Virus record (IMG/VR): IMGVR_UViG_2199352025_000014
Span: 1 to 35,039 of that record
Reading direction: 5' to 3' (one strand)
Source: a virus
DNA: 35,039 nucleotides
Below the pieces are notes generated by a model. The model saw nothing but the letters and a program-made list of their open reading frames with translations, did not search any database and had not been told where the DNA came from. The position numbers were made by a program, and so were the translations under genes. This document shows positions 5,760-34,995 of the stretch, in pieces (the stretch's first letter is position 1; each line of letters starts with the position of its first letter).

Positions 5760-5767
5760 GAGGTTAA

Positions 5768-6022: not shown

Positions 6023-6027
6023 CAGTT

Positions 6028-6103: not shown

Positions 6104-6116
6104 TTTAGGAGAATTT

Positions 6117-6305: not shown

Positions 6306-6306
6306 A

Positions 6307-7744: not shown

Positions 7745-7753
7745 GTTTTAAGA

Positions 7754-8098: not shown

Positions 8099-8111
8099 GA
8101 AAAGAGTTGAA

Positions 8112-12265: not shown

Positions 12266-12270
12266 GGAAA

Positions 12271-13382: not shown

Positions 13383-13389
13383 GGACATT

Positions 13390-14090: not shown

Positions 14091-14097
14091 GTGATAT

Positions 14098-15231
14098 ATG
14101 GCTATTGGCGACCATAAAAGAGTTCAGAATACAGTCGATTACGTAGCCGCACAATCGCAGGGTCCGTTAAATGAAACTAGGAAACGTATCACTGAGCAAG
14201 GCGGTGATATGTGGAACTGGCTATCTCAGGGTGCGAATAATGCACTAACGGACTATAAAGGCATAAATAACCAATATCAGCAATTTCTCAATCCTACTCA
14301 GATAGGTCCGTCAAATATTAATCAAGGGTATGGTAATCTACAAGATCCTGCTACATGGATGAATCTGGTAAGTCAGCCTGACCAATTAAAAGCGTGGTTA
14401 GCAGGTTCTAATCCGGCATTAGCACAGTTATTTCAGAATAATCCTCAATTAGCTGATTACTATGTAAAACAGATACAAGGAAGTCCCGGAGCGAATCCTA
14501 CTGAACAAGCAGGAAGCGCGCAATACTGGGTAGATAAAGCTCTAAAAGATCCAAATATCCCTGGTGCCGATCCATTCCGTACAGGAATGACGAATGCGAT
14601 GTCAGGATATCAAAATTTCGCTGAAACAGGTGGATTCTCGCCACAGGATTTAGAGAATATTCGAGCACGTTCTAATGCACCTATTCGCGGCGTCTATTCT
14701 CAGGCTAACGCGGCAGTAGATAAACAGCGTAGGTTACAGGGTGGATATTCGCCGAATTATACTGCGGCTAAAGCTAAGATGGCGCGTGAGCAAGCATACG
14801 CTAGTGCTGATGCTTCTACGAATACTGAAGCGGCTATAGCTCAAATGCTACAACAGGGTAAACTAGCTGGTTTAGGCGGTGAAGCACAAGTTGGTACGGC
14901 AGGTCGTAATCAGAATCTAGGAGCATTACAGGGACAAACTAGCCTTTATAGTGCTACGCCAGGTCAGGCTCAAGTATTCGGTAGTTTAGTGGGACAGAAT
15001 AGAAATCAGGATTTAGAAGGTCAGAAATTACAGCAAGATATTGGTAAGACAATGCAAGAAGGCAGATTAGGTGAAGCTAAGGTGCCGGGTGATTTCTCAC
15101 AATATATCGGTAACGCTTCCGATACTGTTGGTCTGATTGGTGATATTATGACCGGCGGCAGTTCTAGCCTTTTGAAGAATGTGTTGCCTAAGAAAAAGCT
15201 ACCAGTAGCTACAGATTCATCCATGTATTAG
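14098..15231 (+). CDS. Internal virion / DNA-ejection protein candidate 1
   Basis: This 377-aa protein is rich in Gln, Asn, Ala and Gly with helical stretches (KAKMAREQAYASADASTNTE). Residues ~335-365 (IGNASDTVGLIGDIMTGGSS) are semi-hydrophobic and followed by a basic end (KNVLPKKKLP). Gly/Gln/Asn-rich helical proteins after the tail genes are typical of podoviral ejection proteins that enter the host with the DNA. It is the first of three such genes in a row. Role inferred from composition and order. Confidence 0.5.
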   Translation: MAIGDHKRVQNTVDYVAAQSQGPLNETRKRITEQGGDMWNWLSQGANNALTDYKGINNQYQQFLNPTQIGPSNINQGYGNLQDPATWMNLVSQPDQLKAWLAGSNPALAQLFQNNPQLADYYVKQIQGSPGANPTEQAGSAQYWVDKALKDPNIPGADPFRTGMTNAMSGYQNFAETGGFSPQDLENIRARSNAPIRGVYSQANAAVDKQRRLQGGYSPNYTAAKAKMAREQAYASADASTNTEAAIAQMLQQGKLAGLGGEAQVGTAGRNQNLGALQGQTSLYSATPGQAQVFGSLVGQNRNQDLEGQKLQQDIGKTMQEGRLGEAKVPGDFSQYIGNASDTVGLIGDIMTGGSSSLLKNVLPKKKLPVATDSSMY

Positions 15232-15240
15232 GATAAAGTT

Positions 15241-16755: not shown

Positions 16756-19052
16756 TGGCTGAACAACAAGATATTCATCTACCTGCTGCGCCTAAAAAAA
16801 CTGTCACTCCAGAGGGTGTAGATTTATCTGATATACCTGATGCAGGTGATACATCAGGAGTGGATTTATCAGGTATTCCTGATCTAGATTTATCAGCTAT
16901 TCCTAATGCTCCTAAAACTAGTCCGCAAGGTGGACATTGGGAAACTAAACACTGGCATCAAAGCTGGATTCCCGATACTCCTAGACCTGAAGGATTATCG
17001 CATATTTCTGCACCATTAGTAAGCGGTCCTTATAATCCATTTCAGATGGCGCGAGATAGGATAGCTAATCAAGCCTCTCAACCGTCACCTATGCTAGATA
17101 AGATATATGGCATGTTAGGTGGTGGAACTGGTCGATGGGAGACAGACGCGCAAGGTAATAGAAAATGGGTGAAATCTGTATTACCTGGCGATACTGATTG
17201 GCTTAAAGGTAATCTAGCTACTTTAGCATCATATCCTGTTAGTATAGCAGAGGATGTTGCTAGGATGGCAAATGATTCTCTCGCTGTAGGAACAGGATTA
17301 GCAGGAGTAGCTAATAAGTTTGTTAAACCTCCATTGGGAGGAACGGTATTAGATACTGAAGCTATTAGGGCATTACGAGCGCAAGAAGGCGCAAAAAAGG
17401 TATCAGAAGGATTTACACCTTTACCTGCTAAAACTGCCGAATCTAAGTTGCCACCAGTATCAGGTGAAACTACTGGAGGATTCCAACCACAAACACAGGC
17501 TGATTTGGAGTATCCATTAAATATTGTTCCTAACTCCGTTCGGCCACGCGCGACTCAAACTGCTGTAACAGCAACTATACCTGAGAGTGCTACGACTCCA
17601 TCTACCTTAGATCCTGTAGATTGGAACATTTCACATAGACCGAAGGGTGCGCGAACTGATAGGGTTATGACTGTTAGTGCCGCTACTGACGCAGAGGCTA
17701 GAGAAATAGCTACGGCTCAGGGAGTTAAAAATATTAAAAAGGTAGAAATGATTAGACCCGCATCGACTGTTGTAGGTACTACACAGGAACAGGCGATGGC
17801 ACAACTTAGTAACGAATATCTTAATACTCCTCCTAGTGCCGCAGCACTGACTACAGCAGGCGAAAAGCTACGTCTATTAAAGGCAAATCCCAATGATGAA
17901 GAACGGGATATGCTAGCTAAGATATTAACGGCTCCCAGATCGTTGCGCGCTTCATGGGACGTATCGGCACCATTTAGGCAAGGTCTAGGAATGGTGCATA
18001 AGAAAGAGTTCTGGAAGAATCTAGGTCCGATGTTTCAGGCTGTTAAGAGTGAAGCGGCATTCCGCGCATTACAGGATGAAATTATCTTACGACCTAATTT
18101 CAAACTAATGAATGATTCTGGCCTATTTATCTCCGATTTAAGTGGTGTAATGAATCGTAGAGAGGAAGCTATTATTTCTGACCTAGCAGAGAAATTCCCC
18201 GGAGTGCGCGCTTCTAACCGTGGTTATACGGTATTCCTCAATAAACTACGTGCTGACGTATTCGATTCGATGATTCGAGATTTACGTACGACAGGTGTAG
18301 ATCCACTTAGAAATCCGCAAGCTGTGAAAGAAGTATCGGACTTCATTAATCGTGCTACAGGTCGTGGCTCGTTGAAATTTAACGTACCGGCGTTCGGTGG
18401 AGAAAAGGAAGGGCTACATTGGAGAGAGGTACAATCATTCGAGAATGCTAATAAGTTTCTGAATGCTACATTCTTTTCACCTAGACTAGCCGCATCACGT
18501 ATCGGAACATTCAATCCGTTTAACTACACTTCAGTGAATCCGGTTGTACGAAAGGAAGCTCTTAAATCGCTAGGTGCCATGCTAGGATTTGGTACAACTA
18601 TGCTAAGTGGTGCTTCTATGATGGGTGCCGATGTTAGTTTCGACCCACGTAATAGCGATTTTATGAAGGCTAAACTACCCGGTAGTAATACACGTCTAGA
18701 TCCGTGGGGCGGTTTCCAACAGTACATAGTTCTAGGCGCGCGAATTGCATCTGCTCAAACCGCCAGTTCGCGCACAGGTCAGGTATATGATTTGGGAACT
18801 AAATTCGGTGGTCGTACGATGAAGGATGTTCTGGAGGATTTCGGGGCTAATAAACTTAGTCCGCAGGTACGATTCCTATATGACTATGCTAATCAGAGTA
18901 AGCAACGTCCATTCTATTGGGATAAAGAGACAGCGGATACATTCATTCCAATGCTATGGAGCGATGCTGTAGAAATTACTCGGGATCATCCTGAGAATCT
19001 TCCGGTGGTTTTTCTGACTGCTCTGGGGATGTCGGCTCAGACGTATAAATAG
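16755..19052 (+). CDS. Large internal virion protein with polyvalent-type C-terminal region
   Basis: This is a 765-aa protein. Residues 22-51 are three copies of a DLS-x-IP repeat. Residues ~60-330 are Pro/Thr-rich and probably extended. Residues ~400-700 are helical, with LNATFFSPRLAASRIGTFNP, VSFDPRNSDFMKAKLPG and LDPWGGFQQYIVLGARIAS. These strings resemble C-terminal parts of very large phage polyvalent proteins that are packaged and ejected (LPD38-like, from memory). It is the last virion gene; its 3' end lies antisense to a small zinc-ribbon gene on the other strand (overlap 18976-19052). Confidence 0.6.
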   Translation: MAEQQDIHLPAAPKKTVTPEGVDLSDIPDAGDTSGVDLSGIPDLDLSAIPNAPKTSPQGGHWETKHWHQSWIPDTPRPEGLSHISAPLVSGPYNPFQMARDRIANQASQPSPMLDKIYGMLGGGTGRWETDAQGNRKWVKSVLPGDTDWLKGNLATLASYPVSIAEDVARMANDSLAVGTGLAGVANKFVKPPLGGTVLDTEAIRALRAQEGAKKVSEGFTPLPAKTAESKLPPVSGETTGGFQPQTQADLEYPLNIVPNSVRPRATQTAVTATIPESATTPSTLDPVDWNISHRPKGARTDRVMTVSAATDAEAREIATAQGVKNIKKVEMIRPASTVVGTTQEQAMAQLSNEYLNTPPSAAALTTAGEKLRLLKANPNDEERDMLAKILTAPRSLRASWDVSAPFRQGLGMVHKKEFWKNLGPMFQAVKSEAAFRALQDEIILRPNFKLMNDSGLFISDLSGVMNRREEAIISDLAEKFPGVRASNRGYTVFLNKLRADVFDSMIRDLRTTGVDPLRNPQAVKEVSDFINRATGRGSLKFNVPAFGGEKEGLHWREVQSFENANKFLNATFFSPRLAASRIGTFNPFNYTSVNPVVRKEALKSLGAMLGFGTTMLSGASMMGADVSFDPRNSDFMKAKLPGSNTRLDPWGGFQQYIVLGARIASAQTASSRTGQVYDLGTKFGGRTMKDVLEDFGANKLSPQVRFLYDYANQSKQRPFYWDKETADTFIPMLWSDAVEITRDHPENLPVVFLTALGMSAQTYK
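16818..16907 (+). repeat. Three in-frame DLSxIP repeats
   Basis: Three copies of a short unit reading D-L-S-(D/G/A)-I-P-(D/N) occur near the start of the large internal protein, with near-identical DNA (gatttatc...attcct). The first and second copies are separated by a longer linker. Such repeats suggest a short linear binding motif shown several times, perhaps for docking to another internal virion protein. Confidence 0.7.
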
Positions 19053-19143
19053 GCATATTCTTACAGTGGATGCATATGCCATGATCATGTACTGTGTACT
19101 TACCACAGATACCGCACCACATATGATGGTAGAAGTGTTTCAT
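18976..19143 (-). CDS. 55-aa Cys4 zinc-ribbon protein, antisense to end of virion operon
   Basis: This small gene starts at 19143 in a perfect ATGA overlap with the DUF3987 stop (19140-19142) and has GGAAGG just upstream, so the start is well supported. It encodes HHMWCGICGK...GICIHCKN, giving C10, C13, C24 and C27 in CxxC-x10-CxxC spacing, then a Pro/Glu/Asp-rich tail. The last 77 nt of the gene run antisense through the 3' end of the large internal virion gene. Probably a zinc-bound peptide that binds protein or nucleic acid. It is the last gene of the leftward operon. Confidence 0.75.
   Translation of the reverse strand: MKHFYHHMWCGICGKYTVHDHGICIHCKNMPIYTSEPTSPEQSEKPPEDSQDDPE
19052..19080. 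repeat. Inverted repeat at the convergent gene junction
   Basis: GGCATAT (19052-19058) and ATATGCC (19074-19080) flank a 15-nt loop immediately after the last rightward stop codon. CATGATCATG (19080-19089) and GTAC-TGT-GTAC (19089-19099) follow. No T-run follows on either strand, so this is at best a weak terminator. It also lies inside the small zinc-ribbon gene. Confidence 0.4.
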
Positions 19144-20411
19144 TTTGACCTTCCCTTGAAGTGTAACTTAAACTTTTCAGCTATAGTATCAGGCATCTTA
19201 TAAATGATTTGATTACCTATGGTCTGAATATTAATGACATTTCCCTGGTCGAACTCCTGCATAATCTCATCTAGTTCTGCTGCCTTGATATCCATCATGT
19301 ATCTTTTTAGCATGAATGTTCTTGATACCTGATAGTTCGGCCTGTTTATAATCTCCTTTATAATAATTCCCTTCTTATCTGCGAAATCACTCTTTCCTCT
19401 CTTGCCTAGTGTAGTTCTCCTAACATTACCTATAATAGCCTCAGTCACCTTTAGTGACTCGTTCATATTGCCCGGAGATATGAATAAGCTATTAGACTCA
19501 CTTAATGAGAGTAACATCGCTACCTTTAATACACTATCTCCGAATCGCTGAACCGTGCCCGTTGTATCTTTATCAGGTAACTCTCTAATCGATAGGTAAA
19601 AGTCCTCATACCAATCATCATATATCTTTCCTGCCTCGGTTAGATATACGTCCCCGAATTTAGTTTTCTTTTTGATATTGTATTCTTCTGATTCTTCTCT
19701 ACTTCCTAGCGGTCTGAATGGTCCAGTTAGCTTTGCTAGTTCTTTCAAATGTTCGACTAATTTTAAACGGTCAGGAGGATTACGGAGAGGCACCATTAGT
19801 GAATTTAATACCTGTACTTCAGTTTCGGCTATAACGAACATTCGTCCTATGAATCCTCCCTTGATATCCTTACCTTGTACGAAATCCTCGAAGTGTGCAT
19901 CATTCGTAGCAACTAGCATAGTTAGAGTAGGGTCTTTTAATTGGAATGTCTCCATCTTTAGGAGACTACGGTACTCGCCTTCGTTATACTGACGGTCATA
20001 TAGATCCGTCAATATGGTCATAGCAGCCGGGTCGCTAACAAGGCTAGAACTGAATTCACTAGCAGCAATAAACCCCACAGATTTATTAACGACCTTTCCT
20101 CCGGGGAGAGTATATGCCGTACCAAGTTCTTTGAGAATACCCTGTATACTAGAACGACCGCTGATAATTCTAGTATTGTTAACGCGAGCAACGAGATCCT
20201 TAGCCAGTGCAACGGGTGGTCCTTTCTTTAGGCCACTATCGGCATGTAACATTACGTATATATTTGGGTAGAGTTTGTACGCGCCTGCTCTATCTAGGTA
20301 TACTTGGTCTTTTACTACAGCTGATAATATGGCTAAACCGCTCCAGTACCAAAATGATCTCGGAGATTCTAATTCCTTGTGTTGCTCTATCAGTTTGTTT
20401 AGCCATGTCAT
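19140..20411 (-). CDS. DUF3987-family ATPase (replication helicase/primase-associated candidate)
   Basis: This 423-aa protein starts in an ATGA overlap. Residues ~50-75 hold a P-loop-like segment, MLHADSGLKKGPPVALAKDL, where the usual K-S/T is K63-G64, as is seen in DUF3987 proteins. A Walker B-like strand with acidic end (VGFIAASEFSS, ~112-122) follows, then an Arg-containing GGFIGRMFVIAE element at ~185 typical of the family. The C-terminal ~100 residues look like a winged helix. DUF3987 proteins often occupy the helicase/primase slot of phage replication operons. No other helicase loader, DnaB or TOPRIM primase is visible here. Confidence 0.7.
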   Translation of the reverse strand: MTWLNKLIEQHKELESPRSFWYWSGLAILSAVVKDQVYLDRAGAYKLYPNIYVMLHADSGLKKGPPVALAKDLVARVNNTRIISGRSSIQGILKELGTAYTLPGGKVVNKSVGFIAASEFSSSLVSDPAAMTILTDLYDRQYNEGEYRSLLKMETFQLKDPTLTMLVATNDAHFEDFVQGKDIKGGFIGRMFVIAETEVQVLNSLMVPLRNPPDRLKLVEHLKELAKLTGPFRPLGSREESEEYNIKKKTKFGDVYLTEAGKIYDDWYEDFYLSIRELPDKDTTGTVQRFGDSVLKVAMLLSLSESNSLFISPGNMNESLKVTEAIIGNVRRTTLGKRGKSDFADKKGIIIKEIINRPNYQVSRTFMLKRYMMDIKAAELDEIMQEFDQGNVINIQTIGNQIIYKMPDTIAEKFKLHFKGRSK

Positions 20412-24166: not shown

Positions 24167-24183
24167 TCTTTCCTCTGTAAAAA

Positions 24184-24272
24184 TTGTGGGATGTCAATGA
24201 GACGCACAGGGAGTGTCGTCGCTACTTATTTGACTGACCGCAAAGTTAATCTTATTCGTAGCCATCCCACAA
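24184..24272 (-). repeat. 10-bp inverted repeat bracketing the SSB-Acb2 gap
   Basis: TTGTGGGATG (24184-24193) and CATCCCACAA (24263-24272) are perfect complements 69 nt apart. On the minus strand the downstream arm is followed by TTTTTACAG, a short U-tract. This could form a long-loop terminator or attenuator between the SSB-like and Acb2-like genes, or a translational control element. A 23-codon frame sits exactly in the loop. Confidence 0.6.
24194..24265 (-). CDS. Possible 23-aa leader peptide in the inverted-repeat loop
   Basis: ATG at 24265 opens a 23-codon frame (MATNKINFAVSQISSDDTPCASH) ending at 24194. Its start codon lies in one arm of the 10-bp repeat, and it ends next to the other. 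AAGGG lies about 10 nt upstream. It could be a regulatory leader for the anti-CBASS gene. There is no homology evidence, and a chance frame is possible. Confidence 0.25.
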   Translation of the reverse strand: MATNKINFAVSQISSDDTPCASH

Positions 24273-24276
24273 ACCC

Positions 24277-24687
24277 TTACTGCTGAACCGCGACTACTTC
24301 TGACTTAGGCGTACGATACTTGTGGTTGACGCGATTTACCACGCGTCCCTGCCACGTATCATTCTCGACGTATACGTCAAGCTCTTTACCTGCCGAATTA
24401 CCTAGGTCGTAGCGTTTTCCTGATTCGGCTGTGATACCAAATGCACCGAGAAATCCTACACTAAAGCCGATAGCCTTAGAGTTGAAATTCCAGTCGATAG
24501 GAACGCCCTGATATGTGGTAGAGCCTGTATCTCCATTGAAAAGAATTGTCCCTTCGACGGGATAATTCGTAGAGTTACCGTCCTTCGAGAGTGCTTCACC
24601 TACACTCTCGATTCTCATACGGTACCATGCCGGTTCCACGACTTTTCCACGAAGAATATCGCGTGAACCGTACTCTATTGTTGGCAT
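24277..24687 (-). CDS. Single-stranded DNA-binding-like protein
   Basis: This 136-aa beta-rich protein lies directly downstream of the Sak4-like ATPase. The opening PAWYRMRIESV, a long turn with SKDGNSTNYPVEGTI, and the late KELDVYVENDTWQGRVVNRV strand pair resemble phage OB-fold SSB-like proteins (DUF669-type). The end is short and lacks an acidic tail. SSB, Sak4 and a Cas4-like nuclease commonly act together in phage recombination and replication. Confidence rests on pattern and context. Confidence 0.6.
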   Translation of the reverse strand: MPTIEYGSRDILRGKVVEPAWYRMRIESVGEALSKDGNSTNYPVEGTILFNGDTGSTTYQGVPIDWNFNSKAIGFSVGFLGAFGITAESGKRYDLGNSAGKELDVYVENDTWQGRVVNRVNHKYRTPKSEVVAVQQ

Positions 24688-26335: not shown

Positions 26336-26496
26336 ATGTTTGATTTAAACCAAACTTCGGTACTCCTAGTTAAATTTCCCCATAGGAAATCGAGATGTTC
26401 AAATGGCAACCATAATTGAAATGGTTCTATCCATCCATATCGAATATTGTCAAACTCATCTAAGTACACACCATACCTTCCACAAGCATTACTCAT
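26332..26496 (-). CDS. 54-aa Trp/aromatic-rich protein
   Basis: This gene fills the 153-nt gap between two small genes. Its ATG (26496) overlaps the upstream gene by 8 nt, and its TGA overlaps the next ATG (ATGA, 26332-26335). It encodes RYGVYLDEFDNIRYGWIEPF and FEHLDFLWGNLTRSTEVWF: five or so Trp and many Phe/Tyr, acidic overall, no signal peptide. The exact tiling supports it as real. Probably a compact binding protein; function unknown. Confidence 0.6.
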   Translation of the reverse strand: MSNACGRYGVYLDEFDNIRYGWIEPFQLWLPFEHLDFLWGNLTRSTEVWFKSNI

Positions 26497-26689
26497 TAGC
26501 TTTACCTACTGAGAACATATCATCAGGATGATTGCCATCAATTAGAAAGCCACCGTCATCTTCATGCTGAGCATGTTCACATATTCTACTACATTCGTTG
26601 TCTTTACCTTTTGAATAACATTGTGGACAGCAATGACAAGTTTCATCGCATCCCTGTTTAATATGTTCACATTTATCACATTTATTCAT
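26489..26689 (-). CDS. Cys-rich zinc-binding small protein
   Basis: This 66-aa protein has nine cysteines in the first 37 residues (C4, C7, C14, C18, C20, C21, C24, C33, C37) plus His9, His19 and His39, enough for two or more zinc sites. The second half is acidic and unstructured-looking. It overlaps the Cas4-like gene by 8 nt. Zinc-cluster peptides of this kind usually bind protein or nucleic acid; the partner is unknown. Confidence 0.65.
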   Translation of the reverse strand: MNKCDKCEHIKQGCDETCHCCPQCYSKGKDNECSRICEHAQHEDDGGFLIDGNHPDDMFSVGKANE

Positions 26690-27539
26690 TAGTCGGGTCC
26701 CAAGGAGTTCCTACTTTAAAGTTGTTTTTCAACTCATCTTCGCGCATGTTCGGATTAGCCTTACATACATCTACGAACGGGCAGAAGCCGTATTTGTTCT
26801 CGCAGTGTGTATAGTTGGGAGGCCAGTATCCACTATCGGCATAGAGTAGCATGAGCTTCGCATAATACGGAAGAATCTCCGTTTGCCACTCCATTAAATG
26901 ATCTGCCGTATATGAGAGGACCGGGCGGGTAAACTTTTCGTGCGGTTTGAGAGTCTTTTGAAAACCTATCTTATTGATAATTATCTGACGGGTTTTCATT
27001 AGGATACATTGACCTATAAACTGATTGTTCAGCGTCAAGCTATCTCTACGCTGTTTCATCGTCTTATGGTCTACTGGAAATATTCCTTGATTGGTATCTA
27101 CTGCTGCGTCTAACTTTGCTTTCCAAAGTAGACTAATTTCGTCATCCTCGTAAAGTATTTCACCCTTAACTACTTCAGCCTCTAATGGCACCCAAAAATC
27201 ATTCCGATAGAAATCGAAGTATTCTTCCATCGTGGTAAAGGCTAACTCTATATCTTCTGAACTCGCATTCCTAGTTTCTTCTGGATCATTCGCTAGCTCT
27301 TTACCCTTAGCGAATCCAATAGCAATACTATCACCTCGACCCTTTCCAGCGATGATAGACTTGTAATAATGTTCAATGATAGTATGGCATATACTCCCCA
27401 TTTCCAATGATGGAGATTTTCCACGTATACCGATTAGATTTAGATTGAAGCGGAAATCGGCTAATCGTGGACAGCTCATTAATGTACTGAGCATAGTCGC
27501 ATCTAATACGACGTTCTTCTTTTCAACTAATATTTCCAT
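26682..27539 (-). CDS. Cas4/RecB-like PD-(D/E)XK exonuclease with Fe-S cluster
   Basis: This 285-aa protein has MLSTLMSCPRL (C23), GSICH (H52), D144 in AKLDAAVD, PVDHKT (D157-x-K159), FIGQ (Q177), and a C-terminal CENKYGFCPFVDVC (C246, C253, C259). C23 with the last three Cys matches the 4Fe-4S staple of Cas4 and AddB nucleases. H52, D144, D157 and K159 make the metal-dependent nuclease centre. It would resect DNA ends for the Sak4-like recombinase in the same operon. With no CRISPR genes present, it is a recombination nuclease. Confidence 0.85.
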   Translation of the reverse strand: MEILVEKKNVVLDATMLSTLMSCPRLADFRFNLNLIGIRGKSPSLEMGSICHTIIEHYYKSIIAGKGRGDSIAIGFAKGKELANDPEETRNASSEDIELAFTTMEEYFDFYRNDFWVPLEAEVVKGEILYEDDEISLLWKAKLDAAVDTNQGIFPVDHKTMKQRRDSLTLNNQFIGQCILMKTRQIIINKIGFQKTLKPHEKFTRPVLSYTADHLMEWQTEILPYYAKLMLLYADSGYWPPNYTHCENKYGFCPFVDVCKANPNMREDELKNNFKVGTPWDPTNE

Positions 27540-27557
27540 TTATTCCTTTCAATTAAA

Positions 27558-27587
27558 TAGTAGGGAGAGCCTCGACCCTCCCTACTA
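27558..27587 (-). terminator. Strong hairpin downstream of the basic protein gene
   Basis: TAGTAGGGAG (27558-27567) and CTCCCTACTA (27578-27587) pair perfectly around a 10-nt loop. On the minus strand it is followed by TTTAATTG, a weak U-rich tract, so it may act as a partial terminator or processing site before the Cas4-like gene. Confidence 0.5.
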
Positions 27588-27597
27588 ATAGCACGCC

Positions 27598-27613
27598 TTG
27601 GGCATTTGCCCAA
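27598..27613. repeat. Perfect palindrome TTGGGCA-TT-TGCCCAA
   Basis: TTGGGCA (27598-27604) and TGCCCAA (27607-27613) are separated by only 2 nt. A tight palindrome of this length in an intergenic gap suits a dimeric repressor operator or a short hairpin. It lies 11 nt upstream, in minus-strand order, of the larger hairpin at 27558-27587. Confidence 0.45.
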
Positions 27614-27621
27614 ATCGTTAT

Positions 27622-28065
27622 TTATATCGTGTTGTTCACTTCGTAGTTACCGAAAGCCTTTTCCATATCTTTGTTAGCTTTTCGAGCGCGCGCCTTCTCT
27701 CTCATATTCTGTACGTGTTGCAAACGACCCGGAGTCCATCTGTATACGCGCTTCTTAGCCTTCTTATCCTTCTTATCTTTCTTAGCATAATACTTTTCGT
27801 GTAGAGCCTTAGCCGCCTTCTTGATATTCTCTCTGCGAGCCTTAGTGAATACGAATGGCTTCTTACGCGTATATGGTTTGCGCTTAGGCTTACCGGGGTC
27901 TAATGCTTTCTTCTCATACTTGCGAATACCAAATACGCTCTTAACAATCGCCTCTTGTCTATCGGAGTGACTGTCAGTAGCAACAATACGCTCAATCATA
28001 TTAATTGAGATGCCGAGAGATTCATGCTGTTTTTTTAGTTCTTCGAGCAGCTTTTCGATAGTCAT
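27622..28065 (-). CDS. Lys/Arg-rich DNA- or RNA-binding protein
   Basis: This 147-aa protein has a short coiled-coil N-terminus (IEKLLEELKKQHESLG) and a very basic middle and end (KRKPYTRKKP, YAKKDKKDKKAKKRVY, NMREKARARKANK). The charge pattern suggests nucleic-acid coating or nucleoid interference. It overlaps the RHH-type gene upstream by 44 nt in another frame. No catalytic motif is seen. Confidence 0.6.
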   Translation of the reverse strand: MTIEKLLEELKKQHESLGISINMIERIVATDSHSDRQEAIVKSVFGIRKYEKKALDPGKPKRKPYTRKKPFVFTKARRENIKKAAKALHEKYYAKKDKKDKKAKKRVYRWTPGRLQHVQNMREKARARKANKDMEKAFGNYEVNNTI

Positions 28066-28243
28066 AGTAGTTTACTCTCACCTTCACATCTAGCGCGTGT
28101 GCTAGAATAGTGTTACCGACAAACGACATTGAACAGTTATTAATCTTCGCTTCGTGAGCTAGAGCATCTTTTAGTTCGCCCTCCACGGCGATATACGCTG
28201 TTTCTCTACTAGTTCCGGGTAGACGCGGTAGAAATCGTCTCAC
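28022..28243 (-). CDS. Ribbon-helix-helix DNA-binding regulator
   Basis: This 73-aa protein has a GTG start in a GTGA overlap with the preceding 54-aa zinc-ribbon gene. ETAYIAVEGELKDALAHEA followed by NNCSMSFVGNTILAHAL is the strand-helix-helix layout of CopG/Arc-type repressors. The basic C-terminal end follows. As an RHH dimer it probably binds an operator within the early region; the palindrome at 27598-27613 is a candidate site. Confidence 0.65.
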   Translation of the reverse strand: MRRFLPRLPGTSRETAYIAVEGELKDALAHEAKINNCSMSFVGNTILAHALDVKVRVNYYDYRKAARRTKKTA

Positions 28244-28404
28244 TTCTTCTGCATCCTTTCATTCATTCGTCTGAATGCTCTTATTAATAAGCAATCTTTA
28301 CAGTAAGTTTTATTTTGAAAAGAAGGACTAGGGCAATCGTAGCATTCGCCTCTAGCTTTCTTTTGTGCTCTATATTCGCGTCTCCATTTATTCTTGTCAA
28401 TCAT
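28240..28404 (-). CDS. 54-aa Cys4 zinc-ribbon protein
   Basis: This gene lies in the gap between the TIM-barrel-like gene and the RHH gene. Its ATG (28402-28404) overlaps the upstream stop as TAATG, and its TGA overlaps the next GTG (GTGA, 28240-28243). A basic helix (KWRREYRAQKKARGE) precedes C21, C24, C35 and C38 (CYDC-x10-CKDC), then another basic helix (IRAFRRMNERMQKK). Zinc ribbon with basic flanks suggests DNA or RNA binding. Confidence 0.75.
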   Translation of the reverse strand: MIDKNKWRREYRAQKKARGECYDCPSPSFQNKTYCKDCLLIRAFRRMNERMQKK

Positions 28405-29444
28405 TATCCTACGTATTTACAACCTAGTGATTGAAAGTAGTTACGCTCTAATTGAATCTCCACGCTAGTCACGCGACCGCGCACCCATCGATACACGTCG
28501 TATTCAAACGCATTGAAATACCACGGTCCTCTGATATTCGGTATAGCTAGATAGAATGGTGGAGGATTAACATCGGCATCAGCCGGTTCATTAATAGGCC
28601 AGTTATAGGGCATAACTAACCGACCTACGATTTGCCATATCTGATTACCCCTGTAATTGGGTCTACCTCTACTATCATACGGTGGTCTACCCAAGTCGGA
28701 TAAATTGTATTGTCCAATCCATCCATCGAACTCACCGTATAGCAAATCATAATCTTGCATTCTGCCGCCGGGTATGTAGTCACTTCCCCCTTCTCCGACA
28801 GGGATATGACCTGTATTAAATTCGATTGCCAGATATCCATGAGGGGATATAGTACGAAAAAGTCTACCAAAATCCACAACTTGTTCTGGCGACCATCCAT
28901 AGAATACTCCATCATAACCCGGTGTCCAGATGATATATGGGTCTAAATCTCCTATAGCTTGATGAATGCGCGCGAAATTATTCATTAGCCATTGATGCCC
29001 ATATGTCCATCCTACAGAGTCATTATATTCCTTGAAATGTGGGTCAGGATTAACTGACTGACCATCACCAGCTAGTCGAACGTCAACATAGAATCCCGCC
29101 TGAATACACTCAATGATGCGAGCGCGCATTATATTGAGTGACTGAGTATAGTCGTGCGCGAATTCAGGATCTTGATACGGCTGGCCTGGCTCGTTATACC
29201 ATCCACTAATGTCGAAGATGATATGCTTATCACCGAGCGCGCGTTTCACGCCGTATACCGACTGTCTATCAATGGGATTATCTAGCCATGCTATAGTTTC
29301 CCACCACGGTAGCTGACCGAACTGAGTAGTATTAACTGTCAGTCCTTGGAAATGCATCTTGACCGCTAGAATTTCATCTCTAGTCGGCGGATTCGGTAGA
29401 GAGCCTGAAACTATCTCGTTGTAGTAGTATTTAGTTGTAGCCAT
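28404..29444 (-). CDS. TIM-barrel glycoside-hydrolase-like protein
   Basis: This 346-aa protein has no signal peptide. Alternating strands and helices appear: HIIFDISGWYNEPG, FYVDVRLAGDG, YIIWTPGYDGVFYGW, LAIEFNTGHIP and DLLYGEFDG. Aromatic residues line the strand ends, and Asp/Glu occur where glycosidases carry their acids (candidates: E in AIEFNTG and E in GEFDG). This fits a GH-like barrel. It sits in the early operon, far from the virion genes, which is odd for a depolymerase; it may instead act on an intracellular or envelope glycan. Active-site assignment is inference. Confidence 0.45.
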   Translation of the reverse strand: MATTKYYYNEIVSGSLPNPPTRDEILAVKMHFQGLTVNTTQFGQLPWWETIAWLDNPIDRQSVYGVKRALGDKHIIFDISGWYNEPGQPYQDPEFAHDYTQSLNIMRARIIECIQAGFYVDVRLAGDGQSVNPDPHFKEYNDSVGWTYGHQWLMNNFARIHQAIGDLDPYIIWTPGYDGVFYGWSPEQVVDFGRLFRTISPHGYLAIEFNTGHIPVGEGGSDYIPGGRMQDYDLLYGEFDGWIGQYNLSDLGRPPYDSRGRPNYRGNQIWQIVGRLVMPYNWPINEPADADVNPPPFYLAIPNIRGPWYFNAFEYDVYRWVRGRVTSVEIQLERNYFQSLGCKYVG

Positions 29445-29712
29445 AAACGTGATAGCTCAGCATAGTGTAAGTAAATTGTCCGTCTTGTGGTCTAGTCCAG
29501 GAGGTGAATACCATAGCTCCATTGGGAGTGTACTTTTCATACGGCCCAATATTTGGAGATACATGAAATACACCATACTGGTTCGGCTCTTGCGAAAGAT
29601 ACCCGCCACCCTCAACGGAAAATGATATACTTCCGTCTGAATTAGTGATTACGAGTACAGCCGTAGCGAAAACTGGTGAATCAGCTAGAATATCCTTCGC
29701 AATCTTAATCAT
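29431..29712 (-). CDS. Beta-rich companion of the barrel protein
   Basis: This 93-aa protein is mostly beta strands (VFATAVLVITNSDGSISFSV, MVFTSWTRPQDGQFTYTML). It overlaps the next gene by 14 nt and the previous one by ATGA. It could be a carbohydrate- or protein-binding partner of the barrel protein. Not recognised. Confidence 0.5.
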   Translation of the reverse strand: MIKIAKDILADSPVFATAVLVITNSDGSISFSVEGGGYLSQEPNQYGVFHVSPNIGPYEKYTPNGAMVFTSWTRPQDGQFTYTMLSYHVYGYN

Positions 29713-29930
29713 CTCTGTCTCCTGTGTATACTAGCGTTCCTAATTGGATAGTTGATTCTCCTAGGTGAATACATAGGGAATGAGAAACCATAGTTAGAAA
29801 AAATCTCTAACTTAGCTCCCTTATCCTTCTCCTGAGTGACCTGAGTTTCCATTTTACGACTAGTAATTTTATTCATCCTACGAATGCGCGCTGCGTCGTT
29901 AAGTCTCTTACTTAGTTTCTTTAGCTGCAT
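29709..29930 (-). CDS. Small basic protein
   Basis: This 73-aa protein is rich in Arg and Lys (LKKLSKRLNDAARIRRMNK), with an aromatic middle (NYGFSFPMYSPRRINYP) and a basic end. It overlaps the following gene as ATGA. Likely nucleic-acid or membrane-surface binding; function unknown. Confidence 0.55.
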   Translation of the reverse strand: MQLKKLSKRLNDAARIRRMNKITSRKMETQVTQEKDKGAKLEIFSNYGFSFPMYSPRRINYPIRNASIHRRQR

Positions 29931-29938
29931 TATCTCTC

Positions 29939-30151
29939 CTAACTAAAGTTTGTTTCACTGATGATACGACGCGCGGTATTACGCTCGGATAGCCAGCAAT
30001 ATTCGACTAATCGCTTTGCGGTCAGTCCTAATAGATATAGAGCAACATTACAGTTTTCTTCATCCTTATTAGGATGGCAATGTTCCCTATGCCACTTAGC
30101 GGCGTTACAAATATTCATCAGTTCGGCCATACCGGACGATACTCGTTCCAT
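29939..30151 (-). CDS. Small Cys/His-containing helical protein
   Basis: This is 70 aa from the ATG at 30151, which has GGGAGG upstream and sits 1 nt after the previous stop; the open frame reaches 30220 but would start inside the preceding gene. It contains NICNAAKWHREHCHPNKDEENC (C and H spaced as a possible metal site) and a helix ALYLLGLTAKRLVEYCW. Function unknown. Confidence 0.55.
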   Translation of the reverse strand: MERVSSGMAELMNICNAAKWHREHCHPNKDEENCNVALYLLGLTAKRLVEYCWLSERNTARRIISETNFS

Positions 30152-30152
30152 T

Positions 30153-30569
30153 TTAGTATACCTCCCACGAACATTTAGCACATACAGTAGTGGCGTATGG
30201 TGCTTTGAAATCCTTACCACATTTCTTACATCTTACAGTGGGCGCTTTATCTTTATCCCACTTCGGCTTAGGTTTAGGTATATCGTACTTATTATACTGC
30301 TTTCGCTTTTGTTCATATGGCGAGTCGTAATCATGCGAACGATAATACTGTTTGTTCTGAGTATGCCACTGCTTCATAAATTCCTCAGCCATATCTTTAG
30401 TATATGTAGGCTGAGTGAATTTAGGTGTCTCAGGAACAGAATAACTATTTAATGCGAACTTACCATCCTCTAACATCTTACACACCTTGCGCGCTGCTAG
30501 ATTAGCCTCGTTCTCATTTGGATTGTTATTAGCTAATCGAGTTAGTTTTTTCAGTAGTTCGATGTTCAT
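30153..30569 (-). CDS. DUF2786-like plus C-terminal zinc-ribbon protein
   Basis: This 138-aa protein starts with LLKKLTRLANNNPNENEANLAARKVCKML, the pattern of DUF2786 (helix, N/P turn, EA-x-x-A-A helix). A Lys/Tyr/Pro-rich linker follows. The end is a Cys4 ribbon, CKKC-x12-CAKC (C114, C117, C130, C133). DUF2786 proteins are found in many phages; their role is uncertain. The ribbon places it with the other zinc proteins of this operon. Confidence 0.65.
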   Translation of the reverse strand: MNIELLKKLTRLANNNPNENEANLAARKVCKMLEDGKFALNSYSVPETPKFTQPTYTKDMAEEFMKQWHTQNKQYYRSHDYDSPYEQKRKQYNKYDIPKPKPKWDKDKAPTVRCKKCGKDFKAPYATTVCAKCSWEVY

Positions 30570-30584
30570 ATCAGTTTTCGGAAG

Positions 30585-30719
30585 TTAGAAAGGAATAATC
30601 TCCTTAATGTAAATCGCTATCTTGCATCGGATACACCAGAATAAATTGGTCTGCTGTTCGTCAACAGACCAAATATTTCCACCACAATGCGGACAACTGC
30701 CTAAAAGTTTATTTTCCAT
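30585..30719 (-). CDS. 44-aa Cys4 zinc-ribbon protein
   Basis: ATG at 30719 follows the upstream TAA by one base. The frame runs to a TAA at 30585. It encodes GSCPHCGGNIWSV and LFWCIRCKIAIYIK with C9, C12, C29 and C32 (CPHCG-x15-C-x-x-C), a classic ribbon. It fills an otherwise empty 151-nt gap. Below common length cut-offs, so easily missed. Probably a minimal zinc ribbon acting on host transcription or translation. Confidence 0.7.
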   Translation of the reverse strand: MENKLLGSCPHCGGNIWSVDEQQTNLFWCIRCKIAIYIKEIIPF

Positions 30720-30720
30720 T

Positions 30721-30936
30721 TTATGCTAGTGTTCTTCCATCATCTAATGATAGCGGCTCTACTTTTATTTCGTATGTCACATCCTGCGTGAATACCGGAG
30801 GCGCATCCTCGTAAGATACGATATCTACTAGCATGTCCTGTAAGTTATCCGCTGCGTGTTCTACCTCTATTTTACTTGCATCAGCTTTCAAATAAACACG
30901 AAACTCGATATAACCAATACGCGGATTAAATGTCAT
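30721..30936 (-). CDS. Small beta/alpha protein of unknown function
   Basis: This is 71 aa from the ATG at 30936, which has GGGAG upstream and overlaps the zinc-ribbon gene by 11 nt. The frame is open to 31095, but that would lie over the zinc-ribbon coding sequence. It shows IGYIEFRVYLKADASKIEVE and VTYEIKVEPLSL strands around a helix. Not recognised. Confidence 0.55.
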   Translation of the reverse strand: MTFNPRIGYIEFRVYLKADASKIEVEHAADNLQDMLVDIVSYEDAPPVFTQDVTYEIKVEPLSLDDGRTLA

Positions 30937-31120
30937 AGCCTCGCTCCCGCTTATCCGCACATGAATTGCAATAGGCGTAGTCCGGTCGAATGCGCACTCT
31001 ACGCCCGCATCCCTCGCATTTCTTATAGACCGATTCTTTCTGAACTTTATGATAGAACTCGATATCCTCCGGCCCATCGATTTCGTAGAATCCATAGTTA
31101 TCGTCGTAGTAGGATGTCAT
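30926..31120 (-). CDS. 64-aa zinc-ribbon protein
   Basis: It starts in an ATGA overlap. An acidic, Tyr-rich N-terminus (SYYDDNYGFYEIDGPED) leads to C35, C38, C51 and C54 (CEGCGRRVRIRPDYAYCNSC) and a basic end. The Tyr/Asp-rich arm with a ribbon could be a protein-binding peptide plus a nucleic-acid-binding domain. Its conserved metal site is the reason for preferring this frame to the overlapping one. Confidence 0.7.
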   Translation of the reverse strand: MTSYYDDNYGFYEIDGPEDIEFYHKVQKESVYKKCEGCGRRVRIRPDYAYCNSCADKRERGYDI

Positions 31121-31344
31121 TGATTAGCCCTCCAGATAATGCGCGGATTGCGCACATATTCAGTTTCGATTAAATAGCGTAACTGTCTAGCCTTTGCTTC
31201 ATTAGACCACGTTACGCCGTATGTCGTTCCACCGTACGCGTTCGTATATTCGACAATCATAGCTACTTGTGGGTCGCCCAAATAGTAGCCATTTTTCCTG
31301 ATAATTTCATCGATTATCCCTTTACTGTCGATAGTTGACATCAT
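31117..31344 (-). CDS. Small protein of unknown function
   Basis: This 75-aa protein has AGGAGAAA before two adjacent ATGs. A helix (SKGIIDEIIRKNGYYLG) precedes strands VAMIVEYTNAYGGTTYGVTW and a helix KARQLRYLIETE. The stop overlaps the next gene (ATGA). No family recognised. Confidence 0.6.
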   Translation of the reverse strand: MMSTIDSKGIIDEIIRKNGYYLGDPQVAMIVEYTNAYGGTTYGVTWSNEAKARQLRYLIETEYVRNPRIIWRANQ

Positions 31345-31353
31345 TTTCTCCTA

Positions 31354-33444
31354 TTAGCGAGTCACCATTTTCTTGATATTCGATTGTTTCCGGTTATGTG
31401 AGTCTACAATTGCCTGACCTAATTCATGCATGATATCGTTGTGATTCCATACTGGCATCTCACTCGCATTATGCACGCTATGGAAATACTTACGCTTTTT
31501 CTCTACGATACCATGAAAGAAATCATCGACTGTATCATGGCCCGTTACGCACACTACATTAATATGCGAAGATAGTTGCCCTATCCTCTTGAAGCGACCC
31601 GGCGCAGCTTGGTCCTCATTAGCTGGATTCCACTGTCTTTCATGCAATATCGCATCGCTACAGGTTTGAAGGTTAATTCCTTCTCCCGCCGCTAGCGTGC
31701 TCGCTACCATTAGAGCGCGCGAGCTAGAATTGAACTTATTCTGTAGCTCGAATCTATCTTCTGACGATAGATTTGCGGTCAGCTTCAATACGGGCATATC
31801 GTTGCCGTATTCTTCCTTTAACTTATCATACAGTATCTGACCGACATCGATATGGTGAACGAATATGACTAACTTCCTATCCGTTTCCTCTACGAAATCG
31901 GCCACATATTCAAGAGTCGCTGGAATTTTAGCGATACCGAGTATATGTCGCATCCTCTGAATCTTCGCTGCGATATTATCGGAGCCGAAAGCATCGGTTT
32001 CCTCTCCGCCGATTATCTTAGCATTCCACCATTTTACGAAGTCGGATACTTCCTCGTCATACATCTCTTGCTTAACGCCATCTAACTCGAAATAATGTAG
32101 TGTTCTAGTCACTTCAGGATATTCGTCCATCACGTCGTTATATTCACGACGGATGATAATATCTTTAACGTATTCCTTGAACGCCGGAATATTCCGAATC
32201 CCACCTTCCTTATATTTATTTCCTTCCCAGTGAAATTCAACCCATCTATCGATAAATCCCTGATGTGAATTGAATTTCATAGGGGCAATCATCTGTAGGA
32301 CCGGATAGAACTCGCTACCGCGATTTTTCCACGGCGTTCCTGATAGTGGCACAACGCGCGGAATCTCTTTAACTAAGCGACGGACTTGCTGTGTTCTAGA
32401 TGAATCAGGATTTTTAATTAGCTGACATTCATCTAGAACTATCGTCTGAAATTTCCTATCGAGCAATTTCTGAATGTCGAAACCTTGTTGTACGATTTTG
32501 CCTGATTTCAACTTACGAGTCTTAGGGACTAACAAGTCATATGAGATGAAATACAACTTAAGATTCTTAATTACCGGGTCCGCGCTAGTCCGAATGACCT
32601 GACCGACGAAGTTATCGCCTAGCCAAATCATACTCTGGCAATACATCTGGAAGATAATCCCAGATTTCACGACGAATAGAACTGGTTGTGCTTCCGTATG
32701 ATACTTAATGTAGCCGAATATATCGATTGTCTTACCTAAGCCCATCTCATCGAATACGCCTATGCCCTTGTTTATAGCTAGGCCCGTCTCGATGAAGCGC
32801 ATAGCATCTACTTGGAATTTAAATGGTCGCTTAGCATCGCATAGCTGGCAGAAATTCTTTTGCCATTTATGCTCGCATTTCGGGTCCGCGTCTGCTGATA
32901 TGAATTTCTCGTATGGAGTGACTTTCGGTAACTTACGAAATATATTGTGACCGCATCTCAGTTCGATAACGCGCGTTCCGCCTAAATCGTAGCTACGTTT
33001 TTCTACGGCTACCTTGCCACATTCCTCGCACTTTTGTTGTAATCTAGTGACCTTATACTTGGGCGTGCGGATAATCTGTTCTTCTATTTCGACTTCTAGA
33101 GTCGCGCCTGACCGAATCGCATCGATAGCCTCTGGCGTAAATGATAGATTTGAACACGGTTCCGTGTTATCGCATCCTATCTCTCTAGCTTTATCACGCC
33201 AGATAGAATCGTGAGAATGTCCCGGTGTAAGTGCATGGGCCACTTCGTGGCGTATAGTATTTTTAACAGATTTCTCATCGTGAATATCGATATGTAGCGC
33301 ACTAATAATAAGACATTTGTCCTTATGCACACACATGCCGAGAAATCCGCCGGACATATCTGTAGTTAGTCTTACGTGCCAATCTCTTAAACCATATTGG
33401 TTTAAGGTATCATGAGCGAATTGGACTGCTTCGTTTCGTGTCAT
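31354..33444 (-). CDS. SprT-like metalloprotease fused to SNF2 helicase
   Basis: This is a 696-aa fusion. Residues ~5-95 are SprT-like: HEVAH (H66, E67, H70) with H76/H78 in the following loop. Two zinc modules follow (C139, C142, C164; then C190, H192, C199, C202). Residues ~205-640 are an SNF2 ATPase: DEMGLGKT (232-239), DECQ (337-340, in place of DEAH), LSGTPWKNRGSEF, FVHHIDVGQ, LAAGEGINLQ and APGRFKRIGQ with its arginine finger. SprT proteases cut DNA-protein crosslinks and SNF2 motors move along duplex DNA, so a clearing engine for roadblocks on phage DNA is plausible. I know of no host protein with this exact order. Confidence 0.88.
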   Translation of the reverse strand: MTRNEAVQFAHDTLNQYGLRDWHVRLTTDMSGGFLGMCVHKDKCLIISALHIDIHDEKSVKNTIRHEVAHALTPGHSHDSIWRDKAREIGCDNTEPCSNLSFTPEAIDAIRSGATLEVEIEEQIIRTPKYKVTRLQQKCEECGKVAVEKRSYDLGGTRVIELRCGHNIFRKLPKVTPYEKFISADADPKCEHKWQKNFCQLCDAKRPFKFQVDAMRFIETGLAINKGIGVFDEMGLGKTIDIFGYIKYHTEAQPVLFVVKSGIIFQMYCQSMIWLGDNFVGQVIRTSADPVIKNLKLYFISYDLLVPKTRKLKSGKIVQQGFDIQKLLDRKFQTIVLDECQLIKNPDSSRTQQVRRLVKEIPRVVPLSGTPWKNRGSEFYPVLQMIAPMKFNSHQGFIDRWVEFHWEGNKYKEGGIRNIPAFKEYVKDIIIRREYNDVMDEYPEVTRTLHYFELDGVKQEMYDEEVSDFVKWWNAKIIGGEETDAFGSDNIAAKIQRMRHILGIAKIPATLEYVADFVEETDRKLVIFVHHIDVGQILYDKLKEEYGNDMPVLKLTANLSSEDRFELQNKFNSSSRALMVASTLAAGEGINLQTCSDAILHERQWNPANEDQAAPGRFKRIGQLSSHINVVCVTGHDTVDDFFHGIVEKKRKYFHSVHNASEMPVWNHNDIMHELGQAIVDSHNRKQSNIKKMVTR

Positions 33445-33451
33445 ATTTTTC

Positions 33452-33649
33452 CTAGTTTAGTTTAGCAGGATTGACACATGCTTCATGCATATTCATATAT
33501 TCCTTAATTACTTCGAGCGCGACCGGCGGAGGCGTAGTTAAATCCTCATCCGATAGGAAATCGTATTCCACCGACCCACAGACCGCGCACGACTTACGGA
33601 GCATATATGTATCTCCGTCGCGGACTACCTCGAATGCGACATTATACAT
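33452..33649 (-). CDS. Small protein with partial zinc site
   Basis: This 65-aa protein starts in a TAATG overlap. Strands at the N-terminus (VAFEVVRDGDTYMLR) precede C21, C24 (CAVCG), and a later H55 and C58 (MHEAC) could complete a metal site. It is placed between the zinc-finger gene and the SprT-SNF2 fusion. Function unknown. Confidence 0.6.
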   Translation of the reverse strand: MYNVAFEVVRDGDTYMLRKSCAVCGSVEYDFLSDEDLTTPPPVALEVIKEYMNMHEACVNPAKLN

Positions 33650-34368
33650 TAGTTATTCTCCGCTATTTTGTTGTTAGTTGCGATACAGATTTTCGCCGCC
33701 TGCTCGATAGATACGTTCCGTCTCATAGCCGTCATTTTCAGGACTACAATATCTAGTCCGAATTGATTGGCGTATTTCTTTAGTTCTGAATTATCGTGTT
33801 TCTTGATAGACGGTGCCTTCTTAGGTGTCTTACCCGTATTGATGCCCGGCTTATATTTGATATCGTTTAAGCCTAGCTGTTTTTGCTGTTCGGCAGACAA
33901 TTCCTTCATATGGTGATTGAGATATATCTGCGATTCGCTACGCTCGTTTCGAATAGCCGATATCTCGTTTTGTTTCTCGAATAGCGTTTTATCGAAATGA
34001 CGGATGCGCGCCTTTATCGCTTCCGCTATCGCATACGCTTTATTCTCTATATTCGGGTCCGCTTCGATAGTCTGCTTGATTTTCAGAATCGCCGGAATAT
34101 CTGAATTGTAGTAATCGCCGCTTGTCTTGACTACCTCGTATGAACGTGTTCGTTCATCTGTTACACGTTTTGCAGTTTCATATTCTTTTTGTTTACATGC
34201 CGGACAGATTAACATCTTTTTAGGATGTTTTGTATCCGGGAATAAATCACAATCCGCTACAGCCCCGCACGCTTCACATATAGCATTGCTCGCGTGCGAT
34301 AGTTCGTCGTATCCGCATACGACACATATACCACGATTATCGAATGTTTCCTGATATCCGTGTTTCAT
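33649..34368 (-). CDS. Zinc-finger protein with helical C-terminus
   Basis: This 239-aa protein has seven cysteines in residues 15-58 (CVVC, CEAC, C40, CPAC) for at least one and likely two zinc ribbons. The rest is helical with SDIPAILKIKQTIEADP and a basic linker, closing with a short helical domain (LKMTAMRRNVSIEQAAKICI). This layout suits a transcription or replication factor. No specific match is recognised. Confidence 0.6.
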   Translation of the reverse strand: MKHGYQETFDNRGICVVCGYDELSHASNAICEACGAVADCDLFPDTKHPKKMLICPACKQKEYETAKRVTDERTRSYEVVKTSGDYYNSDIPAILKIKQTIEADPNIENKAYAIAEAIKARIRHFDKTLFEKQNEISAIRNERSESQIYLNHHMKELSAEQQKQLGLNDIKYKPGINTGKTPKKAPSIKKHDNSELKKYANQFGLDIVVLKMTAMRRNVSIEQAAKICIATNNKIAENN

Positions 34369-34369
34369 A

Positions 34370-34702
34370 TCACGCTCCGGGCTTCAAGTAAGTATCTACG
34401 ATAGAATCGGTATCATCGTCCGCGACAATACCATGCGCGCAATCGTAACAGATAGGATGCGATTGTAGGACATTCGTATCATGCTCCATGAAATATAATG
34501 GGTCATGATTTAAATGATGTTGCAGAATGCGCGCGACTTTATTGCATGAAAAACAATAGTAGTTTTTATGTAATAGAAGTGATTCATAATGTGGGGGCAT
34601 ATGGTGAGTGCAATCGCCCGCGCCGCAGGTCCACACTATATGACCGGGCATTAATTCAGCCCGATAGTAATGGTGATTGTGTCTCTTACTTTTGGTTGCC
34701 AT
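34370..34702 (-). CDS. Cys/His-rich small protein
   Basis: This is 110 aa from the ATG at 34702, chosen because AGAGGTAA lies 7 nt upstream; the open frame reaches 34729. C26, C31, H33, H34, C50, C53 (CFSC), C85 and C88 (CYDC), with many His between, indicate two zinc sites. The end is acidic. Function unknown. Confidence 0.6.
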   Translation of the reverse strand: MATKSKRHNHHYYRAELMPGHIVWTCGAGDCTHHMPPHYESLLLHKNYYCFSCNKVARILQHHLNHDPLYFMEHDTNVLQSHPICYDCAHGIVADDDTDSIVDTYLKPGA

Positions 34703-34704
34703 TG

Positions 34705-34995
34705 TTATCTTACCTCTGAGATAGGCCATACATGCATCGTATGGTCTACGTGACTAACGACATTGAAATCCCGATAGCGAACTGTATCCGTCCCGCTCAT
34801 TTCCATAGCGCGCATGACTTTCATCGCATCTAACTTCCTGTAATACCCGTATGAGAATAGTCCGCCTGACTCGTACTCGATACACCACAATAGCGTAGGC
34901 TTAATTAATGCCTTCTGACCACGGCGCGCATGTCTAGTTCGCTTAGTGACTAGTGGAATAACGCGCATCTTCACTTTGTTATCTAAATTCATCAT
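34705..34995 (-). CDS. Small basic protein of unknown function
   Basis: This 96-aa protein has AAAGGAG upstream of two adjacent ATGs and a TAATG overlap with the upstream partial gene. A basic N-terminal half (VTKRTRHARRGQKALIK) is followed by strands and a helix (WCIEYESGGLFSYGYYRK, DAMKVMRAMEM). Not recognised. Confidence 0.6.
   Translation of the reverse strand: MMNLDNKVKMRVIPLVTKRTRHARRGQKALIKPTLLWCIEYESGGLFSYGYYRKLDAMKVMRAMEMSGTDTVRYRDFNVVSHVDHTMHVWPISEVR

Follow-up and report, generated by a model that had tools for sequence, protein, structure and literature searches.

Small zinc-ribbon-type proteins crowd the replication operon of an uncultivated podovirus-like phage and its relatives

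Introduction

Why would a phage fill its replication operon with tiny proteins carrying paired cysteines, and on what would such proteins act? The question is raised by a single virus record of 35,039 bases, referred to here as the window, in which an earlier note had pointed to nine reading frames with CxxC pairs within one operon, described them as an unusually dense series of unrelated-looking Cys4 proteins and proposed that they form a host-targeting suite. In the present work, the existence and number of these genes are established, compared with those of other phages and followed across the relatives of the window, and the roles that they may play are then weighed.

The phage and its relatives

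The window is a fragment, since relatives with the same gene order mostly measure 44-49 kb. It is composed of two convergent halves (Table 1), of which the replication half encodes the SprT/SNF2 protein, a PD-(D/E)XK nuclease, a RecA/Sak4-like ATPase, a cold-shock protein, a UDG-PolA fusion and a DUF3987 protein. We take the operon to be the replication and early-type region of an uncultivated podovirus-like phage, probably with a bacterial host. Its ribosome-site motifs, along with the CCA encoded at the end of the tRNA genes of relatives, would fit such a host without proving it. Among 50,697 phages searched, no nucleotide match to the window and no protein match to its nuclease or capsid were found, and the SNF2 protein gave matches at the helicase level only. 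The host search returned no relative from a genome scan with the nuclease alignment and no match to the tRNA-Leu pattern; a literature search found no paper on this phage family. The relatives considered below consist of 72 loci gathered by means of the nuclease, together with 17 relatives whose records are complete or nearly so. tRNA-Leu(UAA) genes with very different stems recur in the replication region of several loci (L156, L163, L169, L175, L187, L191 and L210); the window carries no such gene. The single homologue of the 346-aa operon protein sits on the structural strand of its genome.

Table 1. Features of the window discussed in the text (positions in the 35,039-base record)
Feature	Position	Strand	Length (aa)	Description
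Structural half	3-19052	plus		Portal, capsid, others
Structural-side protein	7052-7744			C-terminal zinc ribbon
Replication half	34995-18976	minus		Convergent with structural half
Operon-end ORF	18976-19143	minus	55	Cys4; not picked by the gene caller
Structured RNA	24183-24273	minus		Candidate new RNA; gap between two operon genes
Z1	26489-26689	minus	66	9 Cys; acidic
Nuclease	26682-27539	minus	285	PD-(D/E)XK; Pfam PDDEXK_1 5e-7; 72 relatives
Hairpin	27545-27625	minus		Gap before nuclease gene
Z2	28240-28404	minus	54	Basic Cys4, pI 10
Protein without family match	28404-29444		346	Inside operon; single homologue in G019 (L190:3904-5181)
Z3	30153-30569	minus	138	DUF2786-like N terminus, C-terminal Cys4
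Z4	30585-30719	minus	44	Cys4 zinc ribbon, weakly Lar-like
Z5	30926-31120	minus	64	Cys4 zinc ribbon
SprT/SNF2 protein	31354-33444	minus	696	SprT-like metalloprotease, zinc-binding linker, SNF2 helicase (Pfam)
Z6	33452-33649	minus	65	CxxC + HxxxC; orphan
Z7	33649-34368	minus	239	8 Cys, N-terminal zinc ribbon; usually directly upstream of SNF2
Z8	34370-34702	minus	110	Six Cys (HxH...C-x4-C...C-x2-C...C-x2-C); core gene

Cys4 genes of the replication operon

The Cys4 motif was defined as two C-x2-4-C pairs lying 6-45 residues apart, and small genes as those encoding at most 150 aa. All nine reading frames of the earlier note were recovered in place on the minus strand, and eight of them (Z1 to Z5, Z7, Z8 and the operon-end ORF) carry the motif; the claimed pairs fail in Z6, which is not a Cys4 protein because its three cysteines provide one CxxC and a possible H-x3-C. 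Among the 25 small genes found in the 16-kb minus-strand operon, seven encode Cys4 proteins, and Z7 is a further one beyond the small-gene class. A background of 0.7-1.3% predicts about 0.2-0.3 such genes (binomial p ~3e-8 at 1.3%). None of 5000 shuffles reached seven, either when each protein kept its own composition (mean 0.8) or when the composition was pooled (mean 0.09), which bears out the unusual density claimed.

The genes are tightly packed, most junctions being overlaps or gaps under ~15 bases, with a GGAG/AGGA-type ribosome site at many of them. The start of Z6 overlaps the end of Z7 by 1 base and has a GGAG site; the operon-end ORF has an AAGG site and a 4-base start overlap with gene 19140-20411, and its other end runs into the 3' end of convergent gene 16755-19052. 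The word operon, as used in the first description, stands here for a single co-directional cluster, in which promoters or terminators might be located in six gaps of 77-110 bases. Three further proteins had not been listed, namely the SprT/SNF2 protein, with invariant Cys/His, the nuclease, with invariant Cys, and the structural-side protein 7052-7744, with a zinc ribbon. We infer that the zinc proteins of the operon bind zinc.

Enrichment across the phage family

The family uses small Cys4 proteins about ten times as often as other phages. They account for 11% of its small genes, against 0.7% in the polymerase neighbourhoods of T7-like phages and 1.3% in random viral contigs. Across the 72 loci, the motif occurs in 149 of 1,323 small genes, where composition-keeping shuffles expect 16, and 80 control contigs picked at random through a neutral 14-base pattern contain 5 among 461. 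Replication neighbourhoods of T7-like and N4-like phages served as matched controls. When distinct small proteins are counted, the motif occurs in 116/1044 for the family, 7/1029 for T7-like phages, 1/79 for N4-like phages and 5/381 for random IMG/VR contigs; after clustering, these figures become 58/563, 0/115, 1/30 and 5/351, respectively. The clustered rate of the family differs from that of the random contigs with p 2.5e-8, and the N4-like comparison is by itself not significant, the sample being too small (p 0.35). In the complete relatives, small zinc genes are more frequent on the replication strand (64/528) than on the other (12/280, p 2e-4).

Two properties of the counts deserve mention. 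A gene caller trained on one genome alone misses small genes (T7: 34 of ~60), and published gene coordinates were for this reason used for T7, N4, SPO1 and HF2. HNH-type endonucleases carry zinc motifs for a known reason, and such HNH-type or homing endonucleases (clusters 3 and 5) slightly raise the Cys4 count of the family.

Could the excess merely reflect unselected accumulation, in a family that has many small genes and a Cys-rich composition, with no shared reason for the zinc motif? The small genes are indeed numerous and slightly enriched in cysteine (1.8% against 1.2%). However, the rate, expressed per small gene rather than per kb, remains about ten times higher, the composition-keeping shuffles fall far short of the observed counts both in the family and in the window, and the Cys columns are conserved (see below), so that we regard this explanation as very unlikely.

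Conservation and turnover of the zinc proteins

The 150 small zinc proteins of the family fall into 73 clusters, 47 of them singletons, and all clusters except three hold one member per genome. The zinc genes of the family are thus not one duplicated gene, because so many clusters almost never include two members from the same genome; as first described, the proteins of one genome look unrelated, with no BLAST similarity to each other. The earlier note had also made its proposal depend on the conservation of the cysteines, and conserved they are: the Z8 and Z7 families keep them nearly throughout (37 and 32 sequences), and Z1, Z2, Z3, Z4 and Z5 each have at least one relative retaining the motif; for Z6 and the operon-end ORF, the search for relatives found none. 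In most clusters the Cys columns are 83-100% identical against 28-41% for the remaining residues, clusters 3 and 7 being exceptions. The spacing of the Cys4 pairs at ribbon distance, combined with this conservation among homologues, places the proteins with the zinc ribbons. Purifying selection is seen in the zinc genes wherever it is measurable. Most small zinc proteins of the family are lineage-specific and, judging from the distribution of the clusters, appear subject to fast turnover.

These patterns also bear on the idea that the proteins act as a zinc or redox buffer, a metallothionein-like sink that would deprive or protect the cell and in which the total of cysteines would matter rather than the folds. 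Such a role could account for the nine cysteines that Z1 packs into 66 residues, and it has a parallel in the zinc-uptake genes znuABC of Haloarcula, which rise during His2 infection, an increase that the authors tied to the many CxxC proteins of this virus (PMC7221443). Yet several clusters hold defined spacings and further invariant residues rather than bulk cysteine, and Z7 and Z8 also conserve residues other than cysteine, with family-specific surfaces that recur; a buffer is accordingly hard to credit.

Core members Z7 and Z8

Z8 is found by HMM in 62 of the 72 loci, with a single match per locus. Residues H10, C26, C31, C50, C53, C85 and C88 are invariant in 37 sequences sharing 17-33% identity with the window protein. 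The inner ATG at 34702 was favoured over the start at 34729 (ORF 34370-34729) because the family alignment begins there. The gene mostly lies directly upstream of the recA-like gene and adjoins Z7 in a minority of loci that includes the window. For the AlphaFold model of Z8 (pLDDT 77), Foldseek gave no match at E <= 0.001 and VIA none with a Z of 2 or more, an absence that does not show the predicted fold to be new.

Z7 was found in 34 of the 72 loci. C31, C34, C55 and C58 are invariant in 32 sequences, and an extra N-terminal pair, C15/C18, occurs in 16 of 31. The model (pLDDT 88) displays a zinc ribbon, a long helix and a C-terminal three-helix domain whose residues 188-239 match EF-Ts and UBA domains weakly (Z 4-6 over ~50 residues); Foldseek gave no match to this domain with E under 0.1. 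The modelled domain may thus be UBA/EF-Ts-N-like, at modest Z. The proximity of Z7 and SNF2 is not proof of partnership, and the two genes are separated in relative L072/G019.

The neighbouring SprT/SNF2 protein unites its domains in one chain, each scoring above the Pfam cut-off: SNF2 (E 8e-20, 71.5 bits for a cut-off of 24.9), Helicase_C (9e-12, 45.7 for 23.5) and SprT-like (8e-6, 26.2 for 25.6). Two groups of invariant Cys/His precede the helicase; C139, C142 and C164 are present in 35/35 sequences and C190, C199 and C202 in 34/35. The short SNF2 calls of several relatives (544-600 aa) may be devoid of the SprT part.

Accessory zinc members and other cysteine-bearing proteins

Z1 is 73% identical to its homologue in the distant relative L210/G023, whose capsid protein is 51% identical to that of the window, and 8 of its 9 cysteines are kept; these eight would leave room for two zinc sites. 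The dN of 0.24 and dS of 1.04 of this pair indicate that Z1 is under purifying selection. Since dS reaches 2.0 for the capsid protein and is saturated for the portal, Z1 was probably exchanged between relatives, its last sharing being more recent than that of the structural genes. The L072 homologue of Z5 is 69% identical to it and keeps all four cysteines, with a dN of 0.24 and a saturated dS.

Other members are more restricted. Z2 has a single weak relative (L169:16945-17190, E 3e-4) in which the Cys4 is retained, and a contig scan with Z2 and Z6 found nothing. Z3 has four homologous ORFs; its cysteines are conserved in every compared pair, with 33% identity elsewhere. Z4 has homologues in G005 (L161, 2e-8) and G015 (L056, 1e-5) that keep the Cys4 and a C-terminal IPF. 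Two family assignments were tried and rejected. Z3 scores 19.7 bits as DUF2786 over residues 7-30 (E 9e-4), below the Pfam cut-off of 23.9. Z4 scores E 0.005-0.013 as Lar, with 16.2 bits for a cut-off of 28.6 in Pfam and 17.0 for 39.6 in NCBIfam. Searches of PADLOC, NCBIfam, PHROGs and Pfam assigned none of the small zinc proteins, and a library of solved structures gave no significant match; the PADLOC matches were limited to the SNF2 helicase part.

Outside the small-gene class, C23, C246, C253 and C259 of the nuclease are invariant in 15 sequences, an arrangement of the Cas4/AddB iron-sulphur type from which we infer a cluster. The nuclease of most relatives has an additional Cys-bearing insertion that the window protein lacks (alignment consensus). 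The Cys4 of protein 7052-7744 is present in 17/17 copies from the complete genomes and the window. A portal Cys4 is present in 11/18.

Comparison with known systems

Crowding by zinc ribbons is already known, since there are precedents in His2, HF2 and phage G. The haloviruses His2 and HF2 encode many small CxxC proteins, some of them early genes (PMC7221443, PMC8707807). As in the present family, short CxxC proteins abound in the early or replication regions of these viruses, where they are annotated as such, and the Cys4 rate of HF2 equals that of the family (8 of 65 annotated small genes, 12%, in the stretch examined). These viruses have archaeal hosts and a PolB-type genome, whereas the family encodes PolA and has relatives in which the tRNA genes end in an encoded CCA; a non-exhaustive family comparison found no homology between HF2 or His2 and the window proteins. 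Small zinc ribbons are likewise numerous in Bacillus phage G, with about 35 copies for which a role as transcription factors or structural DNA binders was suggested (PMC7824862). There, one family was duplicated, unlike the dozens of unrelated clusters found here, which do not constitute an expansion of the phage G type.

The C(P)XCG zinc finger microproteins of Haloferax volcanii are similar in having under 70 aa, two CxxC pairs and many members per genome, but they are cellular archaeal proteins. Zinc binding was demonstrated for most of them (PMC10716476, PMC11241148, PMC6562870), but several predicted ones do not bind the metal (PMC11241148), so that a Cys4 motif alone is no proof of zinc binding. 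The restriction-alleviation family Lar (PF14354, TIGR03655) groups short zinc-ribbon phage proteins, which Z4 resembles no more than any zinc ribbon would.

As far as our search shows, the novelty resides in a bacterial-type podovirus lineage with dozens of unrelated ribbon clusters, enrichment over three controls and two new conserved families, Z7 and Z8, as core members. This set makes it possible to ask, in testable form, why the early regions of some bacterial and archaeal viruses are packed with tiny proteins that bind metal; it also yields candidates for host takeover or counter-defence that would escape similarity searches.

Possible roles of the zinc proteins

The proposed host-targeting suite is supported in part. 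The lineage-specific members fit a cargo directed at the host or at its defences, but Z7 and Z8 are core genes beside SNF2 or the RecA-like gene, a placement that suggests a role in DNA metabolism no less than one directed at the host. Since the family, defence and solved-structure libraries gave no significant match, no target was identified for the accessory members. RNA polymerase, ribosomes and nucleases, which the earlier note had suggested, are speculative candidates.

We favour, at even confidence, a reading in two layers. A stable DNA-metabolism core would comprise the SprT/SNF2 protein, the nuclease, the RecA/Sak4-like ATPase, UDG-PolA and the DUF3987 protein, and would be accompanied by a cargo of tiny genes with fast turnover. 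The metal-stabilised ribbon, for which 40-70 residues can suffice, would be the preferred scaffold of the lineage for this cargo, being economical to encode, stable and easy to re-surface. Z7 would have become fixed as a helper of phage DNA transactions alongside SNF2, and Z8 alongside either the RecA-like protein or the pair formed by Z7 and SNF2. Each accessory ribbon would occupy one host target, a protein or a nucleic acid, in host takeover or counter-defence, and the accessory set, aimed at the host, would be renewed repeatedly.

The zinc proteins, the small accessory ones included, might instead all or mostly belong to the replication, recombination or packaging machinery of the phage as DNA-binding ribbons not directed at the host. 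Their genes do sit in the replication operon, Z7 and Z8, as the best conserved members, adjoin SNF2 and RecA-like genes, and zinc motifs recur in the SprT/SNF2 protein and in the invariant ribbon of 7052-7744. The charges of the operon zinc proteins spread widely, from pI 4.4 to 10, and cut both ways: Z2 and Z3 are basic, as would suit this role, but Z1, Z5 and Z6 are acidic. Most small members are moreover confined to one or a few relatives, as the singletons illustrate, whereas the replication enzymes are shared. We consider this alternative doubtful.

The two-layer reading has a bolder extension, in which metal-ribbon microproteins would be a general renewable scaffold for binding both host and phage proteins and would be swapped between related phages by way of an early operon that is itself fixed, Z7 and Z8 coupling the cargo to the SprT-SNF2 remodeller and the RecA-like protein. 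In this broad form we find it unlikely.

RNA elements of the operon

The gap before the nuclease gene contains a hairpin of very high stability (13 pairs, z -5.5). It is possibly a terminator or a processing site, and a search of the relatives found no similar sequence.

A second gap holds the candidate structured RNA, for which Rfam gave no match. It consists of a closing stem with a poly-U end, inner hairpins and an internal loop, CGAAUAAG...AAUAAG, that is invariant in the four closest copies, and it usually occurs directly after the homologue of gene 24277-24687. Among six relatives, the stems vary in sequence yet still pair, and both sides are changed in 15 of 22 pairs, where shuffles average 7 and never attain 15; these counts lean towards structure because the alignment was fitted to it. 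Two of the six copies, in L018 and L069, were recovered with the model, which had been built without them.
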